Shown here one piece after another: positions 1-10,644 of a stretch of 10,708 nucleotides of DNA (positions within the stretch are counted from its first letter, which is position 1; every line of letters starts with the position of its first letter). The notes under the pieces were generated by a model. That model was not told the DNA's origin, searched no databases, and was given only the letters and a program-made list of their open reading frames with translations. Origin of the DNA: Actinomycetes bacterium (GTDB lineage Bacteria > Actinomycetota > Acidimicrobiia > Acidimicrobiales > Palsa-688); NCBI GenBank assembly GCA_021816565.1, contig JAKAXN010000129.1, forward strand, positions 1-10,708, in the 5' to 3' direction. Both the position numbers and the translations under genes were made by a program.

Positions 1-508
1 GCAGGTGCTCCAGCCGGCCCCCGGCCGCCAGCAGCAGCCGGAGCGGCCGCTCCAGGTCCGGGTCTTCGAGAATCGAGTCCACGAACTCCGACCAGCGGGC
101 CTCGAACTGGATCTGGGAGGTGATCTCGTCGAGCACCTCGATGCGCGGTGGCAGGCCGGCCTCGATCGGGAACTCGGCGAGGATCCGCTGGGCGAAGGAG
201 TGAAGCGTGCCGATGGCCGCCCGGTCCAGGTCGGCGAGCCCCGAGCGGCACATCCCGGACCGCTCGGAGCGGCGCTGCATCTCGGCCCGTATACGGTCCG
301 CCAGCTCGGCGGCGGCCTTCTCGGTGAAGGTGATGGCGGCGATGTGGTCGGCCGGTACGCCCGACTCCACCAGCGCCACGAAGCGGTCCACCAGGCAGGT
401 GGTCTTGCCCGATCCGGCCCCCGCTTCGAGGAACAAGGTGCGTGCCAGCTGCTCGCTGACGGCCCTTCGGGCCCGGTGGTCGTCTGTCGTCGTTGTGTCA
501 GCGGCCAC
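1..508 (-). CDS. UvrD/AddA-like ATP-dependent DNA helicase, N-terminal part (runs off left edge)
   Basis: This is the N-terminal 169 codons of a superfamily 1A helicase, which uses ATP to translocate along and unwind DNA, here probably as the motor of an AddAB-type repair complex. Three motifs are visible in order: the Walker A motif AGAGSGKTT (residues 29-37), motif Ia AITFTEKAAAEL (58-69) and IGTLHSFAQRIL (99-110). Their order and spacing fit UvrD, RecB and AddA. The start is a GTG at 506-508 that overlaps the end of the upstream nuclease gene by 11 nt, which indicates translational coupling and one operon. The remainder, including the second motor half and any C-terminal nuclease domain, lies outside the window. 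Assignment to AddA rather than AdnB or another UvrD paralogue rests mainly on the neighbour. Confidence 0.93.
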   Translation of the reverse strand, partial: MAADTTTTDDHRARRAVSEQLARTLFLEAGAGSGKTTCLVDRFVALVESGVPADHIAAITFTEKAAAELADRIRAEMQRRSERSGMCRSGLADLDRAAIGTLHSFAQRILAEFPIEAGLPPRIEVLDEITSQIQFEARWSEFVDSILEDPDLERPLRLLLAAGGRLEHL

Positions 509-3500
509 CGGCCAGCGCCTCCGGCTCGACGAGTTCGATGTAATCCCGCAGGACCGGGTGAGCGCGCTTGCGCTCCCACTCCCTGCGGGTCTCCGCGGTG
601 CTCAGCCCGTCGGGGGAGCAGTAGCGGCAGTCGACGTAGTGGTAGGGCGGGTCGGCGGACGGCCGGCGGGGGAATATCCCCGACCGGATCCCGTCGACGA
701 TCGCCGCGATGGCCGCCCCCACCTCCTTCTCGACCTGCGGGCCGACCGGGTAGCCGAGCCTGCGGAACCCGCCCTTGTCGGTGGTGAACCAGTAGTACGC
801 CTCCACCATGGACCGCCCGAGCACGTGGCGGGCCGCCGCCGCGTACACCGCCAGCTGCAGGTGCCGGCCGCCCAGATGCGGGTCTCCCTCGGCCAGGTCC
901 CTGTAGGTGCTGAGTCCCCCGGTCTTGTAGTCGAGCACCGTCAAGGCGTCGGCACCGCCGTCATCGACGCGGTCGATCGACCCCCGGAACGCCACGGATC
1001 GCCCGTCGGGCAGCGGGTACGGCGCCCCCTCGAAGCTCAGCTCCGTGCGGAGCGGCCGGCCCGTGTCCTCCCGGGCGAAGCGGGCCAGGTCCTTGACGAT
1101 CCGGGCCCGGTCCCGCCGCCAGAAGACCCCCCGGCCGCTCAGCCCCTGGGCTGCCAGGAGCTGGCACTCCTCCTCGGCGATCCGCTCGAGCAGCTCCCGG
1201 GCGGCCCCCTCCCAGGGCCCGTGGCTGCCCCCGGGGATCTGCCCGGCGATGAAGCGCTCGAGGATCCGGTGCATCAACGTGCCCTTCTCCAGGGCGGACA
1301 TCTCCAGGCGGGTCTCCGGCTCCTCGACCGCTTCCACCCCCAGCAGGTGGTTCATGAAGAAGGCGTGGGGGCAGCGGGCCCACTCCTGCAGCCGGGTGGC
1401 CGACGTGACCGTCCCCGCCGTGTAGTCGGGCAGCTCCGCGCCGGTGAGGTGGCCGTCGAAGCGGGTGAAGCGCGCCGAGCGGCGTGCCCGGGCCAGTGCC
1501 ATCCCGCCTCGGAGGACGGCGTCGGCGGCCATCACCGGGGAGGGGTCCGACAGCATGCCCGACAGGCGCAGGTCCTGGGCGGTGGCCGGGAAGTCGGTGG
1601 AGGCGATACCCGCGGCGTGCGACGCCACGGCCTCGAACCAGGGCGCTGCCAGCCCGGCCAGGTCGTCGGTGAAGAGCGCCGGTCGGCCGGCCAGCACGGC
1701 GGCGTCGGCCAGCAGCCACCGCGACGCCGGGCGGCCGGTGCTGCGGCGCAGATCGCCCCGGGGGAACACCAGGACCGCCTGCTCGGAGCCGGCGACCGCG
1801 GCGAGCAGATGGCGGTGGTCGTCGTGGAGCCGCTCGGACCGCAGCTTCAGCTCCCCCCGGCCGGCCCGGCGGACCTCGTCGGGGAGCAGCGAGTCCTCGA
1901 CGCGCTGGACCGGGAACGACCCCTCGGCCATCCCCAGCACCACCGTCCGGGCCGTGCGGACCCCCACCGCCGACCCCACGGGTGCCACCAGCACGCCGTC
2001 ACCCAGCCGGCCGACCCGGCGCAGGGCCAGCTCCAGCTCCGCGTCGAGCGCCCGGCGGAAGACGTCCAGACCGGGCGGCGCACCCCCCAGCTGGTCCAGG
2101 CCGGCCAGGCGCTCCACCGCCTGTTCCACCCGTTCGGCGGCCCGGAGTTCCTCGTCGGGCCACCCTTGCCGGCGGCGTTCGCCCCCCACCCACTTGTCGA
2201 GCAGGGCCGTCACCGCGTCCGACAGGGAGCGCCACGAGCCGGCGGCGTGGAGCGCCTCCAGGTCCGACCGGAGCCGGCCCACGAACGACTGGAGCCGCTC
2301 GGCCTGCTCGGCGTCGAGGCTCAGGCGGCGGGCCCGCGGCTCGTCCTCGTCGCGCCGCGCCTCCGTCGCGGTCAGGCGACGGCGGGCCGCGTACATCTGC
2401 AGGCGCCCGGTCCAATCCGACCCGCACACCACGCCGGCGTCGCGCGACACCCGCTCCCATGCGCGGGCCGGGGCCGGGCGGTCACCGTCGAGCAGCCCCG
2501 ATCCCGACACCAGCCCCAGCACCTCGTCGCGCCGGAAATCGCCGTCGGCCAGGCCCAGCAGGGCCCGGACCGTGCGCCCCAGGAACATCTCCCCGAGGGT
2601 CCGTACCGGCGCCCCGGAATGAGGTATGCCGGCCGCCTCGAGGTGCTCGTGGAGCAGCCGGGCGTAGGGTTCGGCCGGACCGTAGAGGACCGCCATCCGC
2701 CCGAGGGGCACGCCGTCTCTCATCCAGCCGGCTATCAGCCGCAAGGCGCCCCGCACCTCCTCGTCGGGGTCGCTGACGCTCACGATACGGCTGCACACCG
2801 GACGCTCGACAGGCGCCCCAGGGACCTCGATCCCGGCCCGGCGGTGGGCTTCGATGACCGGTCGGTCGGCGTCGGCCTCGCCGGTCAGGCCGACGTTGAC
2901 CCTGAGCGGGGCCACCCCGGCCAGTGCCCGCAGCAGCCGGGCTTCGGCCGCCGAGGGGTGCTGCAGGAGATGCACGATCACTGCGGCCCCTGCCACGCCG
3001 CCCGCCTCCACCACGCCGGTGGCGGCGGCGATCAGGTCTGCCTCGTCGTACCATCCGCCAGCGAGCGCCTCCCGGGCCTGCCGGTGGACGCGGACCACGT
3101 CGGAGGCCAGCCCCCCGGTCCCGGCCAGCCCGTCGAGGGCCTCTTCGGTCAGGCCGGCCAGCTCCCGCGCTGCCGACACCAGGGCCAGCTCCGTCGCCGG
3201 GTGGTCGGCCACCGGCGCAAAGCGCCCGGGGTCGACCTCCAGAACCTGCCGTATCGCCGCGGCCAGCACCGGGCCGCTGACCGGTCGCCGTCCGGCCGCC
3301 GCCAGCCGGGCCGAGCCCAGGCGCTCGGCCACGCGGGCCAGGGTCGTGAAGGTGACGGCGGCCAAGCCCCCGGGCCGGGCGGCCAGCTCCCGCCGGATAG
3401 CCACCCCCGCATAGTTGGACGCCACCACCACCGTCACCTCGGCCAGCGGGTCACCGTCCTTGGCCCGGGTGATCTGCTCGGCCAGCAGGTCGGTCGCGGC

Positions 3501-3566
3501 GGGTCCGTAGGCGGTGACCAGGGCGTCGATCCACGGGCCGTCCGCACCGGCCTTCCCGCTCAGCAC
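498..3566 (-). CDS. AddB-like PD-(D/E)XK nuclease with degenerate helicase region
   Basis: This 1022-aa protein is the probable partner of the following helicase in processing double-strand breaks. The C-terminal nuclease domain is well marked: GTLMHRILERF with H766, GSIDRVD (862-868, D865), LDYKTGG (878-884, D879 and K881) and QLAVYA (904-909, Q904). These are the RecB/AddB nuclease motifs. The N-terminal half resembles an SF1 fold (TVVVASNYAGVAIRREL near 45-61) but I see no Walker A GxGKT, so it is probably not a working motor. This fits AddB-like proteins whose helicase half is structural. Cys732, Cys980 and Cys983 match three of the four iron-sulfur ligands expected around such nuclease domains, while the fourth site is Ser989. 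The GTG start at 3566 is the first possible after an in-frame stop at 3600-3602, with a GGAGG-like stretch about 10 nt upstream. An AdnA-type identity is the main alternative. Confidence 0.9.
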   Translation of the reverse strand: MLSGKAGADGPWIDALVTAYGPAATDLLAEQITRAKDGDPLAEVTVVVASNYAGVAIRRELAARPGGLAAVTFTTLARVAERLGSARLAAAGRRPVSGPVLAAAIRQVLEVDPGRFAPVADHPATELALVSAARELAGLTEEALDGLAGTGGLASDVVRVHRQAREALAGGWYDEADLIAAATGVVEAGGVAGAAVIVHLLQHPSAAEARLLRALAGVAPLRVNVGLTGEADADRPVIEAHRRAGIEVPGAPVERPVCSRIVSVSDPDEEVRGALRLIAGWMRDGVPLGRMAVLYGPAEPYARLLHEHLEAAGIPHSGAPVRTLGEMFLGRTVRALLGLADGDFRRDEVLGLVSGSGLLDGDRPAPARAWERVSRDAGVVCGSDWTGRLQMYAARRRLTATEARRDEDEPRARRLSLDAEQAERLQSFVGRLRSDLEALHAAGSWRSLSDAVTALLDKWVGGERRRQGWPDEELRAAERVEQAVERLAGLDQLGGAPPGLDVFRRALDAELELALRRVGRLGDGVLVAPVGSAVGVRTARTVVLGMAEGSFPVQRVEDSLLPDEVRRAGRGELKLRSERLHDDHRHLLAAVAGSEQAVLVFPRGDLRRSTGRPASRWLLADAAVLAGRPALFTDDLAGLAAPWFEAVASHAAGIASTDFPATAQDLRLSGMLSDPSPVMAADAVLRGGMALARARRSARFTRFDGHLTGAELPDYTAGTVTSATRLQEWARCPHAFFMNHLLGVEAVEEPETRLEMSALEKGTLMHRILERFIAGQIPGGSHGPWEGAARELLERIAEEECQLLAAQGLSGRGVFWRRDRARIVKDLARFAREDTGRPLRTELSFEGAPYPLPDGRSVAFRGSIDRVDDGGADALTVLDYKTGGLSTYRDLAEGDPHLGGRHLQLAVYAAAARHVLGRSMVEAYYWFTTDKGGFRRLGYPVGPQVEKEVGAAIAAIVDGIRSGIFPRRPSADPPYHYVDCRYCSPDGLSTAETRREWERKRAHPVLRDYIELVEPEALAGGR

Positions 3567-6588: not shown

Positions 6589-6840
6589 GATCACCTGCGC
6601 GGCTCATTTCGACATTCCTTGCCTGGATTGGATGGACCGGGGCCCAGCAGCCTGACGACGAGGTCTGCTTCTTCCATGCGGGAGGGCTGGTGTTTCGGCC
6701 TGTGGACGGCCCTGGGAGGCCACGGGGCCCCGGGCATCGAGCTAACGACCGGAGCGTTCGCGGATCCCGACGGCTATGTGTGGGAGGTGGCCCACAATCC
6801 CGGGTGGACGGTCGCGGCGGACGGCTCCGTCACGATCTGA
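6589..6840 (+). pseudogene. Decayed VOC (glyoxalase/bleomycin-resistance-like) gene
   Basis: The 3' end, [19 protein letters not shown] followed by AADGSVTI and a TGA at 6838-6840, is the typical C-terminus of a VOC-superfamily protein and includes the WEV glutamate used in metal binding. Upstream, VOC-like sequence is split between frames: SFRH in one frame, [20 protein letters not shown] and HAGGLVF in another, then [16 protein letters not shown] back in the first. An extra C in TTTCGGC near 6699 accounts for the second shift. About 45 residues normally found between the GIEL and FADPDG segments are missing, as is the first beta strand. It is therefore a remnant with indels and an internal deletion. 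The joined frame of 88 codons from 6574 is open but would not make a complete fold. Confidence 0.72.
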
Positions 6841-6863
6841 ACCATCGCCGACGCCCACGCCGT
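6838..6863 (+). promoter_or_regulatory. Weak candidate ECF-type promoter upstream of the hemerythrin gene
   Basis: TGAACC (6838-6843), 17 nt, then CGTGAG (6861-6866) resembles the two strong sites at 8688-8752 but has a spacer one base longer. It overlaps the stop codon of the VOC remnant and lies about 90 nt before the hemerythrin start. A chance match in GC-rich DNA is quite possible. Confidence 0.25.
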
Positions 6864-6954: not shown

Positions 6955-7494
6955 GTGGGAGTGAGTGCTGGTGAGGTGCTCTCCCGGGAGCACGATCGGC
7001 TCAGTCAGGCCTTCGACCGGATACGGGACGAGCACGTCGATCACGTCGCCGCCTGGCACACGGCGGTCAAGCTGATGACCACCCACGTCGCCGTGGAGCG
7101 CACCTTCCTCTACCCGGTGGTGAAGAAGCGGCACCTGGGCGCAGCCGGTCTGGCCCGGGGTCTGCAGCATGACTACAGCCGGCTCGAGCACCTGCTCGTG
7201 CTGACCGAGCGGCGCAAGATCAACTCCCCCGACATGGTGGATCTGGTCACCGAGCTTCTCGGCGTGTTCGAGGCCCACGTGGATCGCTGCGCCACCGGCC
7301 TCATCCCGGCCATGGACAAGAGCCTCAGCCCGGCCGAGATGGAGGAACTCGGTATCGCGATGTCCGCAGCGGAGAACGTCATCGTCAGCCATCCGCATCC
7401 GCACCTGCTGGCTCTGGGCCCGGTGTACCCCCTGACCACCCGCATGGCCTCCAGGTGGGACCGCTGGCGTGACCGCACCGTCCGCAACCAGTAG
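6955..7494 (+). CDS. Hemerythrin HHE domain-containing protein
   Basis: This 179-aa, mostly helical protein matches the hemerythrin-like four-helix bundle that normally holds an oxo-bridged diiron site for binding O2 or for iron or redox sensing. Likely ligands are His13 (SREHDRL), His44 and Glu48 (THVAVERTF), His72 (QHDYSRLEH) and His108 (FEAHVDRCA). In the usual H-x3-E of the last helix, the Glu position is Cys112, so the site may be altered. The C-terminal third (from about 125) has no recognisable motif apart from SHPHPH (145-150). No signal peptide or membrane segment is seen, so it is probably cytoplasmic. GTG 6955 is chosen as the outermost start; GTG 6961 is equally possible. It is convergent with the anti-sigma gene, with 20 nt between stops and no clear terminator. 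Confidence 0.85.
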   Translation: MGVSAGEVLSREHDRLSQAFDRIRDEHVDHVAAWHTAVKLMTTHVAVERTFLYPVVKKRHLGAAGLARGLQHDYSRLEHLLVLTERRKINSPDMVDLVTELLGVFEAHVDRCATGLIPAMDKSLSPAEMEELGIAMSAAENVIVSHPHPHLLALGPVYPLTTRMASRWDRWRDRTVRNQ

Positions 7495-7514: not shown

Positions 7515-8159
7515 TCAACGGCCCACGGGGACGGCGATCAACTGGCGGCCGCTGCTGGTGTCGACCACCAGCCGCACGAGCTGGTCTTCGGGGATGGCCG
7601 TGGTCCCCTGCACGGCCGCCGTGCCGGTGTAGCTGGCCCGCCAGGTCCCGGCGATGTCCCGGCGACCGTCGCGGGCCACCGCCAGCAGGATGCATTCCTG
7701 CCCGGCCGGCACCCCGCTCACCCGCACGCTGATGGCCGTCCCGGACGCCTTCGGCTGCAGGGTGAACCGGGCCGACACCCCCGCCGCCGACGCTGCCACA
7801 TGGGACGGGGTCCGGCCGGGGCCGCCGGCCAGTTCTGCGCCGGCCGTCGCAGCCGCTCCTGCGATGAGCGCCGTCACCGCCGCGGCGGCGAGCCACCGGC
7901 GACGGCGTAGCCGCTGACGGCGGGCTGCAGCCGCGACCAGCCGGTCGGCGAACCCGGTATCCGGCCCGGCCGGAGCCGACCCGACCCGGTCCGGGTCCAC
8001 CAGGGCCAGCAGGTCCGCCAGACCGGCCAGCTCCGCCATTTCCGCGGCGCAGCTGTCGCAGCCGGACAGGTGGGCCTCGAGCTCCGCGGCCTCCGTCGGA
8101 TCGAGGATGCCGAGAAGGTGCGCCCCCAGGTCACCACGGCGATCGGCGCACGCGGTCAC
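7515..8159 (-). CDS. Zinc-finger membrane-anchored anti-sigma factor (RslA-like)
   Basis: This 214-aa protein probably holds the ECF sigma factor encoded just upstream inactive at the membrane. The cytoplasmic N-terminal domain has the ZAS motif H30-x3-C34-x2-C37 (HLSGCDSC), with Cys4 as a possible further ligand. A basic stretch RRQRLRRRR (80-88) precedes a single transmembrane helix at about 89-108, giving an N-in topology. The remaining ~105 residues form an external domain (SVRVSGVPAGQE, GTWRASYTG, LVRLVVDTSSG) like those of RslA or RskA proteins, where the signal or regulated proteolysis would act. The GTG start overlaps the sigma stop by 4 nt (GTGA), indicating translational coupling. 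Redox loss of zinc releases the partner in related proteins. That this one senses redox is inference. Confidence 0.9.
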   Translation of the reverse strand: MTACADRRGDLGAHLLGILDPTEAAELEAHLSGCDSCAAEMAELAGLADLLALVDPDRVGSAPAGPDTGFADRLVAAAARRQRLRRRRWLAAAAVTALIAGAAATAGAELAGGPGRTPSHVAASAAGVSARFTLQPKASGTAISVRVSGVPAGQECILLAVARDGRRDIAGTWRASYTGTAAVQGTTAIPEDQLVRLVVDTSSGRQLIAVPVGR

Positions 8160-8665
8160 GGGTTGACCCCCCGCTCCTGTAGCGCCAGGCGCAGGGCTCG
8201 CAGCGCGTAGTAGCAGCGGGACTTCACGGTGCCCGGCGGAATCCCCAGTACCCGGGCCGCCTCACCGACGGACCGGCCACGGAGGTGGGTCTCGATCAGC
8301 ACGCTGCGGTGCTCCGCCGAGAGGGTGCGCAGCGCATCCTCCACGAGCCATCCGACGAGGGCCTGGTCCAGATGGTCCGATACGGAGGCGATCTCGCGTT
8401 CGTCCAACTCGACCTCGGGCGGACGGGCCTGGCGGGCCCGGTGCTGGTCGATGGCGATCCGCCGGGCGACGGTCATGAGCCACGGCCGGAGCCCGCCCCG
8501 GTCCGGGTCCAGGGCCTGCGGATGGCGCCACGCCCGCAGCAGCGTCTCCTGCACGATGTCCTCCGCTCTTCCCCTGTCGCCGCCGGTGAGCCGGGTGGCG
8601 TAGCCGAGCAGCGGCCCGGCGTGTTCGGCGCACAGCGCCCGCAGCATCTGCTCGTCGGCGACCAC
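8156..8665 (-). CDS. ECF (extracytoplasmic function) RNA polymerase sigma factor, SigL/SigK-like
   Basis: This 169-aa sigma factor has only regions 2 and 4, as ECF factors do. Region 2 spans about residues 5-75 with the -10-binding helix AEDIVQETLLRAWRH (34-48) and the WLMTVARRIAID segment. Region 4 spans about 110-162 with the helix-turn-helix RSVGEAARVLGIPPGTVKSR (131-150) that reads the -35. The GTG at 8665 is preceded by GGAGG with 7-nt spacing. The longer frame from 8725 would add a Gly-rich head and would begin upstream of the predicted promoter at 8688-8712, so it is rejected. It is co-transcribed with the anti-sigma factor and diverges from the lipoprotein gene. The promoter pair between them predicts autoregulation. 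The SigL-like label rests on the RslA-like partner and the TGAACC/CGT sites. Confidence 0.92.
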   Translation of the reverse strand: MVADEQMLRALCAEHAGPLLGYATRLTGGDRGRAEDIVQETLLRAWRHPQALDPDRGGLRPWLMTVARRIAIDQHRARQARPPEVELDEREIASVSDHLDQALVGWLVEDALRTLSAEHRSVLIETHLRGRSVGEAARVLGIPPGTVKSRCYYALRALRLALQERGVNP

Positions 8666-8687
8666 CGCACCACCTCCACCCCCTCCC

Positions 8688-8712
8688 ACGGATCCAGCCT
8701 GCCTCCGGTTCA
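8688..8712 (-). promoter_or_regulatory. ECF-type promoter of the sigma/anti-sigma operon (autoregulatory)
   Basis: On the minus strand TGAACC (8712-8707) is followed by exactly 16 nt and CGTGGG (8690-8685). This matches the TGAACC-N16/17-CGT pattern reported for mycobacterial SigL-type promoters. It would start transcription about 15 nt before the GTG at 8665. The same architecture is repeated on the other strand at 8728-8752, which makes chance unlikely. Confidence 0.75.
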
Positions 8713-8727
8713 CTCCCGGCGCCACGG

Positions 8728-8752
8728 TGAACCGTCCGGGTCCGCCGACCGT
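8728..8752 (+). promoter_or_regulatory. ECF-type promoter of the lipoprotein gene
   Basis: TGAACC (8728-8733), a 16-nt spacer and CGTGGTG (8750-8756) mirror the sigma-operon promoter. The two -35 elements lie back to back in an 8-bp perfect inverted repeat, CGGTTCAC / GTGAACCG (8706-8713 and 8727-8734). Transcription from about 8760 would give a leader of about 45 nt with AGGAAGGA before the ATG at 8805. Confidence 0.75.
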
Positions 8753-8804
8753 GGTGTCGGAAGTGGGAGCAGGACTGAGAGCAGCTCACAGGAAGGACCC
8801 AGCC

Positions 8805-9380
8805 ATGATCCGACGTCCACCGTCGTGCCTGGTCGCACTCGCCGCCGGGGGTCTGGCCCTCGCCGGTATCGGAGCCGGGTGCGGGTCCAGTGGTACCCGG
8901 GCGGCCGGCGCCACCGGCAGCACCACCCGCCAGCCGGCGGCCGGCACCAGCCTCCAGCCCCCGGGCCACTCCACCGGGGGCGCATCGGTCGACGTCCGCT
9001 CGACCGGCCTCGGCCAGGTCCTGGTCACCCCGACCGGGAACGTCATCTACCTGCTGACCTCGGACCGGCCCGGTGCCCGGGCCTGTTCGGGGGCGTGCCT
9101 GGACCTCTGGCCGCCGGTGATGGTCCACGGGGCGCCGAGCGCCGGTCCGGGGGTCAGCGCCCGGCTCGGCGAGCTACCGCTCAACGGTGGCCAGCAGCTC
9201 ACCGTGGACGGCCACCCCGCCTACACCTTCTCCGGCGACAGCAGCGCCGGGCAGACCGCGGGGGAGGGCATACACAGCTTCGGCGGCACGTGGTGGGCGT
9301 TGTCGGCCTCCGGAGCGGCGGTCACCAACGCCGGGGCGGCGAGGCCACCCTCGACCGGCGGCTCGTACGGCGGGTACTGA
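8805..9380 (+). CDS. Secreted lipoprotein with Yx(FWY)xxD-type repeats (COG4315/PF03640-like)
   Basis: This 191-aa protein has a lipoprotein signal peptide: MIRR, a hydrophobic stretch to residue 25, and Cys26 in GIGAGC as the lipid-modified residue. A flexible Ala/Gly/Thr/Ser linker follows. The mature part has two units resembling the predicted-lipoprotein repeat family: TPTGNVIYLLTSD (Tyr82, Asp87) with the Cys pair ACSGACLDLWPPV (Cys94, Cys98), and DGHPAYTFSGD (Tyr140, Asp145) followed by SFGGTWWALSASG. The family has no agreed function; envelope or redox roles have been suggested. The ATG at 8805 has AGGAAGGA upstream, and the longer frame from 8727 would bury the signal peptide, so it is rejected. 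It is expressed divergently from the sigma gene and is probably its direct target. The C-terminal tail is Gly/Ser/Tyr-rich. Confidence 0.87.
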   Translation: MIRRPPSCLVALAAGGLALAGIGAGCGSSGTRAAGATGSTTRQPAAGTSLQPPGHSTGGASVDVRSTGLGQVLVTPTGNVIYLLTSDRPGARACSGACLDLWPPVMVHGAPSAGPGVSARLGELPLNGGQQLTVDGHPAYTFSGDSSAGQTAGEGIHSFGGTWWALSASGAAVTNAGAARPPSTGGSYGGY

Positions 9381-10191: not shown

Positions 10192-10644
10192 CTACCCCCG
10201 GTGGAGCGGCTGCCCGTCCTCGTCGAGCAGCCACCGGGCACCGGGACCGTCGGCGGCCGCTACGTCGTGGGGGTTGAGCAGGTGGCAGACCCGCAGCGAG
10301 AGGCATCCGCAGCCGATGCAGGTGTCCAGGCGGTCGCGCACCCGCTGCAGCTCGGCGATGCGCCGGTCGATCAGCGGCCGCCACGAGCGCGACAGACGCT
10401 TCCAGTCGGCGGCGGTCGGCGTCCGCCCCTCGGGCAGCGTGGACAGTGCCCGGGTGATGTCGTCCAGGCTCAGCCCGACGCGCTGGGCGGCCCGGATGAA
10501 GGCGATGCGGCGCAGGACCTCCCGGTGGTAGCGGCGCTGACCTCCGTCGGTACGGGTGGCGGCGATCAGCCCCTCCCGCTCGTAGTACCTGAGGGTCGAA
10601 GCCGTCACGTTGGCCCGGTCGGCCACCTCTCCGATGGTGAGCAC
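10192..10644 (-). CDS. soxR: Redox-sensitive MerR-family transcriptional regulator SoxR
   Basis: This 150-aa regulator begins with a winged-helix DNA-binding domain (LTIGEVADRANVTASTLRYY, then EREGLI, TDGGQRRYHREVLRRI). A dimerisation helix follows (about 80-108, with Trp81), then the cluster Cys109-x2-Cys112-x-Cys114-x5-Cys120. That spacing is identical to the [2Fe-2S] ligand set of E. coli SoxR. In the known family, oxidation or nitrosylation of the cluster by redox-cycling compounds twists the operator DNA and activates a promoter with an over-long spacer. Actinobacterial SoxR proteins often control oxidoreductases or efflux rather than soxS. Start is GTG 10644, with AGGA 9 nt upstream and a TAGGAT that could instead make a leaderless mRNA. 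The matching operator lies 28 nt upstream. Confidence 0.95.
   Translation of the reverse strand: MLTIGEVADRANVTASTLRYYEREGLIAATRTDGGQRRYHREVLRRIAFIRAAQRVGLSLDDITRALSTLPEGRTPTAADWKRLSRSWRPLIDRRIAELQRVRDRLDTCIGCGCLSLRVCHLLNPHDVAAADGPGARWLLDEDGQPLHRG

Follow-up and report, generated by a model that had tools for sequence, protein, structure and literature searches.

Mirrored SigL-type promoter-like sites between a sigma/anti-sigma gene pair and a divergent PF03640 gene for a probable lipoprotein

The window analyzed here is a stretch of 10,708 bases in which a gap of 139 bp separates a SigL-type ECF sigma factor gene (start 8665, minus strand) from a divergent gene for a probable lipoprotein (ATG 8805, plus strand). 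Comparison of this sequence with those of its relatives suggests, at roughly five chances in six, that the gap is the divergent regulatory region of a SigL-RslA-type envelope/redox module, in which TGAACC-N16-CGT would be read in both directions and the PF03640 lipoprotein would be a recurrent neighboring target. An autoregulated SigL-RslA module is a known kind of system; a tie of PF03640 or COG4315 to SigL, as a neighbor or otherwise, was not found in print in the open-licence literature that was searched. The named relatives of the window proteins belong to Actinomycetota and include Acidimicrobiales and Mycobacteriales metagenome genomes.

Table 1. Coordinates and supporting matches of features in the window.
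Feature	Position	Strand	Basis or detail
AddA-like helicase, start only	2-508	-	far under NCBIfam AddAB cut-off
AddB-like nuclease	498-3566	-	far under NCBIfam AddAB cut-off
RslA-like zinc anti-sigma factor, 214 aa, GTG start	7515-8159	-	zf-HC2 PF13490; PDB 3hug_B
SigL-type ECF sigma factor, 169 aa, GTG start	8156-8665	-	PF04542/PF04545; NF007227; PDB 6dv9_F
SigL-type promoter-like site, sigma/anti-sigma side	8686-8712	-	TGAACC-GGAGGCAGGCTGGATC-CGTGG, reading 8712 to 8686
Parts of the minus site		-	-35 TGAACC 8712-8707; 16-bp spacer; -10 core CGT 8690-8688
Perfect 8-bp inverted repeat enclosing both -35 boxes	8706-8734		CGGTTCAC-N13-GTGAACCG; arms 8706-8713 and 8727-8734
SigL-type promoter-like site, lipoprotein side	8728-8754	+	TGAACC-GTCCGGGTCCGCCGAC-CGTGG
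Parts of the plus site		+	-35 TGAACC 8728-8733; 16-bp spacer; -10 core CGT 8750-8752
Probable lipoprotein, 191 aa, two repeats	8805-9380	+	Pfam PF03640 (Lipoprotein_15, 'secreted repeat of unknown function')
SoxR-type MerR regulator, third gene from sigma in the lipoprotein direction	10192-10644	-	TIGR01950, 204 bits versus 116.9

Two opposed promoter-like sites in the gap

A first-pass annotation had reported TGAACC-N16-CGTGG twice in the gap, once per strand, with the -35 elements in an 8-bp perfect inverted repeat. Both observations were reproduced (Table 1): even with N17 allowed, the motif has exactly two matches in the whole window, on opposite strands and both inside the gap. The spacers, described there as identical, are equal in length (16 bp) and differ in sequence. 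The arrangement sought for a SigL-type promoter, a -35 box followed by a spacer of 16-17 bp, is present twice in the gap as TGAACC, which we take to be the -35 box of M. tuberculosis SigL, followed by 16 bp.

That such a pair arose by chance in a G+C-rich gap is the least credible of the explanations considered. The motif is short, and one TGAACC-N17-CGT lies outside the gap (the window has seven TGAACC in all); against this, 0.01 matches to TGAACC-N16/17-CGTGG are expected per shuffled window and none of 200 shuffles contained two, while in 200,000 Markov sequences generated from the gap's own dinucleotides TGAACC-N16-CGT appeared on at least one strand in 145 and on both strands in none. The motif also recurs at SigL-like genes of relatives, as described below. 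The looser third match (6838-6863, plus strand) overlaps the stop of an ORF, 117 bp before a hemerythrin-domain gene (6955-7494), and is itself likely a chance occurrence because N17 is rare in relatives.

According to a study of M. tuberculosis SigL (PMC6372665), the -10 region of SigL promoters is C-14 G-13 T-12 G-11 N C/A A G, the promoter of sigL itself (P-sigL) is SigL-dependent with a CGTG-containing -10 region that starts CGTGTCAG, and the targets named include pks7-pks10, Rv1138c-Rv1139c, recN and sigL. Measured against this consensus, the minus site (CGTGGGAG) matches every position except -9, and the plus site matches at -14 to -11 only, departing after CGTG. Using the numbering of the same study, transcription is predicted to start near 8676 on the sigma side and near 8764 on the lipoprotein side, with predicted leaders of approximately 11 and 41 nt, respectively.

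A SigL-RslA-like gene pair

The sigma factor scored 238.5 bits (cut-off 202) against NF007227 (PRK09645), presumably the SigL model, whose printed name is only 'sigma-70 family', and its solved relatives in the PDB were, best first, SigL (6dv9_F, 4e-38), 3hug_A (3.5e-16) and SigK (4.7e-11). These matches, together with the recurrence of the motif and its spacing at SigL-like genes, support the earlier assignment of the protein to the SigL type. SigK-RskA of Mycobacterium combines an ECF sigma factor, a membrane anti-sigma factor and secreted-protein targets; the window sigma factor differs from it, reaching 73.5 bits where the SigK model has a cut-off of 226, and identity with SigK was rejected. 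SigM was rejected as well, the score being under the cut-off of its model.

The anti-sigma gene starts within the sigma stop, the two overlapping as GTGA. Its product carries an N-terminal HLSGCDSC, corresponding to the HxxxCxxC motif, scores 30.6 bits against zf-HC2 PF13490 (cut-off 22.2), has RslA (3hug_B, 2.8e-6) as its best solved relative and, judged by eye, contains a hydrophobic stretch followed by an extracytoplasmic tail. The window pair thus resembles SigL-RslA of M. tuberculosis both in the nearest solved relatives of the two proteins and in joining a sigma factor to an anti-sigma factor with a zinc motif. To our knowledge, no PF03640 lipoprotein gene lies beside SigL-RslA in M. tuberculosis. 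In PMC2877774, 3hug_A is the sigma part of the SigL-RslA complex and zinc release from RslA upon oxidation weakens sigma binding; in PMC10449499, the Rip1 protease acts on RslA.

Upstream of 8665, in-frame GTG codons occur at 8689, within the -10 element, at 8713, where the -35 box lies, and at 8725, farther upstream than that box; the next in-frame start downstream of 8665 is ATG 8647. Since the three upstream GTGs lie in or upstream of the promoter, translation would begin at 8665 or 8647 if the minus promoter is used. Five predicted proteins (P0001-P0005, 77-93% identical) begin M(V/I)ADE at the residue matching 8665, as placed by gene callers, and these orthologues favor 8665 over 8647. 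The sites had been said to fix the start at 8665; they would exclude the upstream GTGs, given use of the minus promoter, and are also compatible with 8647, so that the preference for 8665 comes from the orthologues.

Recurrence of the motif at SigL-like genes

For comparison we used 81 SigL-like loci, comprising the best 80 of 439 qualifying stretches from a genome scan with the sigma factor plus the window, and searched both strands of the 300 bp upstream of each sigma gene for the strict site TGAACC-N16-CGT. In these 300-bp stretches (best 80 of 439 plus the window), CGT at N16 occurred 39 times, compared with the 0.34 that the remaining DNA of these loci would predict, whereas the N15 spacing was absent and N17 occurred once; viewed from the -35 box, 39 of 45 TGAACC were followed by CGT at N16. 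A surplus at N10 (13) and N12 (4) was rejected as separate spacings, 12 of the 13 and all four of the latter being the same N16 boxes. At the level of loci (best 80 of 439 plus the window), 34 of 81 carry a strict site, while 1,079 permuted motifs averaged 0.11 loci with a maximum of 6 and the reversed motif was found at none.

A strict site directed toward the sigma gene is present at 22 of the 81 loci, window included (best 80 of 439 plus the window). In the window, 47 bp separate this site from the start of sigma, and among the matches listed the distance is 40-48 bp at 13 of the 21 other loci of this kind. Of 27 further SigL-like loci (L134-L160), just four (L135, L136, L151 and L160) have a strict sigma-directed site, those without it coming mostly from Streptomyces-sized genomes of 7 to 10 Mb. 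The locus counts are not independent because they include related species, with Kribbella (three), Lentzea and Saccharothrix each counted more than once. The motif and its spacing recur at SigL-like genes of Actinomycetota far above controls, yet they are not universal, and many loci are without a strict site.

Pairing with a divergent PF03640 gene

A divergent PF03640 gene accompanies the sigma gene at 18 of the 81 loci, window included (best 80 of 439 plus the window), and a strict site points into this gene at all 18, or 17 of 17 besides the window among the matches listed. By comparison, none of the 63 loci without a divergent PF03640 gene has a divergent strict site within 300 bp (best 80 of 439 plus the window). 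The site lies within 300 bp of sigma in 17 of the 18; at L055 it is farther out, adjoining the lipoprotein gene, and the sigma-side site of this locus has a 17-bp spacer. At L065 the divergent PF03640 gene sits in a long frame. Long stop-to-stop frames also produced a 'downDiv' label for L064 and L069, which was discarded as an artefact, both being divergent like L063. The nearest relatives with readable DNA (L001 and L002) have no PF03640 match in the fetched stretch. A divergent PF03640 gene is also present at two of the 27 further loci: L136, which is the same place as L129 and has both arms, and L137, where no strict site accompanies the divergent gene pair.

Both arms occur within 300 bp at L057, L061, L065, L080 and the window (best 80 of 439 plus the window), and the number of base pairs between their -35 boxes is 2, 2, 14, 14 and 15, respectively, with 9 at L129. 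The closest counterparts are the sigL/PF03640 gaps of Kribbella (L057, L061 and L080), which have the same gene pair and two mirrored TGAACC-N16-CGT sites and differ from the window in this distance and in a -10 that continues CGTA. Instead of housing two -35 boxes, the perfect inverted repeat could be the operator of a dimeric regulator, either a repressor or an activator; the window does contain a SoxR-type MerR gene (Table 1). This explanation was set aside as very improbable because the distance between arms varies from 2 to 15 bp in relatives while N16-CGT is kept in each arm; in addition, 29 of the 34 site-bearing loci (best 80 of 439 plus the window) have a lone arm.

A comparison of the divergent gap among relatives, suggested in the first-pass annotation as a check on both sites, gave a mixed outcome. 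Conservation extends to the lipoprotein-side site of all 18 loci and to both arms at L057, L061, L065, L080 and L129, but loci of Lentzea, Saccharothrix and Umezawaea have the lipoprotein-side site only, their sigma side being empty even at one mismatch, and L137 has neither. The lipoprotein-directed site retained alone in Lentzea and Saccharothrix, like the 23 of 27 further SigL-like loci without a strict sigma-directed site, would be expected if only the plus site works, in which case expression of the sigma genes would be driven from another place and the minus site would be a relic or weak. We consider this improbable: the minus site is the better of the two fits to the published -10 region of SigL, its position relative to the sigma start is like that of several relatives, and a strict sigma-directed site is found at more than the window alone, as counted above.

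When 74 sigma proteins were placed on a quickly built tree, seven rows carried a label for a divergent PF03640 gene with two sites, including L055, where the pair is not tight. The label requires at least five gains or losses, four of them forced by well-supported branches, and it is only mildly clustered, since 8 of 500 shuffles were equally low. The mirrored pair may have been gained repeatedly, or it may be an old state that was lost elsewhere. Taken together, the relatives suggest that the mirrored pairing of sigma and PF03640 genes is real and recurrent.

A downstream arrangement in Micromonosporaceae

The sigL-rslA-lipoprotein cluster of Micromonosporaceae (L010 and others) contains the same three kinds of gene and mirrored SigL-type boxes, but there the lipoprotein gene follows the anti-sigma gene on the same strand (34 loci, among the matches listed). 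A strict minus-strand TGAACC-N16-CGT is present in the stretch searched at 29 of these 34 loci (for example, L010:7368-7392); in a gap alignment this arm is directed toward the 3' end of the anti-sigma gene, with a repeat that by eye resembles a hairpin lying in between. The -35 boxes of the two genes differ from those of the window, that of the lipoprotein gene being TCAACC-like and that of sigma TGATCC. For the lipoprotein gene, a TCAACC-like N16/17-CGTA box was found at 32 of 34 loci with a pattern that was picked after seeing the alignment. Its -35 box is 33-35 bp from that of the minus arm in 28 of the 29 loci with both boxes; the exception is L029, where a match within the anti-sigma gene was met first and gave a value of 192. 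For sigma, a one-mismatch search placed the TGATCC box 230-297 bp upstream, with CGT at N16 in 25 of 34 loci and at N17 in six.

The Micromonosporaceae minus arm may be an antisense promoter through which SigL acts on the anti-sigma gene. If it works, a SigL-driven antisense transcript would follow, and this variant would offer a test of whether a sigma factor can oppose the gene of its own anti-sigma partner by antisense transcription.

PF03640 genes and their sites

The window lipoprotein matches PF03640 in two stretches (1.3e-17, 63.5 bits, cut-off 24.4), and no solved relative was found in the PDB up to an E value of 1. A homologue search gave 70 proteins, window protein included, and Y82, C94, C98, W102, Y140, D145, G153 and W163 are invariant in 78 aligned sequences. 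As read by eye, the putative lipobox of the window protein, GIGAGC, has an unusual residue at -3, and that of the homologue P0243 is a clean LAGC. One conjecture is that C94 and C98 would suit extracytoplasmic redox or metal handling. PMC8078820 lists PF03640 with a low score in a table of modeled repeat families. There is also a weak match of the window lipoprotein to a family named after SCO0930, which PMC6295645 places in the SigU regulon.

Whether the site follows the PF03640 gene or the sigma gene can be judged from a sample of 26 PF03640 genes, 25 from 12 genomes and one from G172. A strict site was present at 13 of the 26, 11 within the script's search window and two (L167 and L172) ahead of the domain but inside a frame that is too long; the other 13 were without one. 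For 14 PF03640 genes the fetched stretch contains no SigL-like gene, not counting L168 and L170, whose sigma genes are just outside it, and four of these 14 (L161, L169, L173 and L194) have a site where approximately 0.05 are expected from background density. The link between site and PF03640 is not a matter of mere neighborhood, because these four of 14 have the site with no SigL-like gene nearby, and it does not extend to the half of the sampled genes that are without it.

A model for the divergent gap

By analogy with SigL-RslA of M. tuberculosis, a signal would cause the membrane anti-sigma factor to release the sigma factor, and RNA polymerase loaded with sigma would then read TGAACC-N16-CGT in both directions. 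Leftward transcription would yield more sigma and anti-sigma factor from the two overlapping genes, and rightward transcription would yield the PF03640 lipoprotein. The sigma factor would probably use both sites in its own organism, and the trigger would presumably be redox or envelope stress. Some competition between the two promoters would be expected, since -35 boxes 15 bp apart crowd the upstream parts of the polymerases.

Positive autoregulation is likely and net positive feedback is presumed, although the sign of the net feedback cannot be read from sequence because the sigma and anti-sigma genes overlap and are read together; according to PMC4821874, the net sign hinges on protein amounts and affinities. 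For this reason 'self-amplifying' was an overstatement in the first-pass annotation. The circuit proposed there retains its two-way SigL-type sites.

A broader joint reading is possible but doubtful. PF03640 lipoproteins would be a core and old output of SigL-RslA throughout Actinomycetota and might act back on the membrane anti-sigma factor through the conserved CxxxC pair; the mirrored -35 boxes would compete for one holoenzyme; and the Micromonosporaceae arm would have turned into a SigL-driven antisense promoter, providing a second positive-feedback route.

If the sites function as proposed, PF03640 would be tied by promoter sequence to SigL-RslA signaling, which gives a testable condition for studying this family, and SigL-type factors would gain a recurrent target. 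The mirrored gap would represent a compact natural divergent ECF promoter pair.

Mirrored sites in motif-only scans

Scanning 246 genomes of the phylum for GGTTCA-N0-30-TGAACC-N16-CGT gave matches in 39, and both -10 arms were present at five places. Two of the five are at SigL-like genes with anti-sigma genes (L129 and L133), and the mirrored pair of L129 adjoins a PF03640 gene. At L133, which has a SigL-like sigma and an anti-sigma gene, the mirrored pair faces a different protein with a signal-like start and no PF03640 match. The place at L132 overlaps a long open frame. The mirrored pairs of L130 and L131 precede genes that are related to each other, with 74% DNA identity over 330 bp, and so may mark a second mirrored target. 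Twelve genomes chosen for their SigL-like genes contained seven two-arm places, four of which are sigL-PF03640 gaps. Two more mirrored TGAACC-N16-CGT pairs occur in a Kribbella genome (G004) at C6:13698-13755 and C7:521294-521346 (L095-L098), and one of these two stands before a gene whose product begins with a signal-peptide-like stretch.
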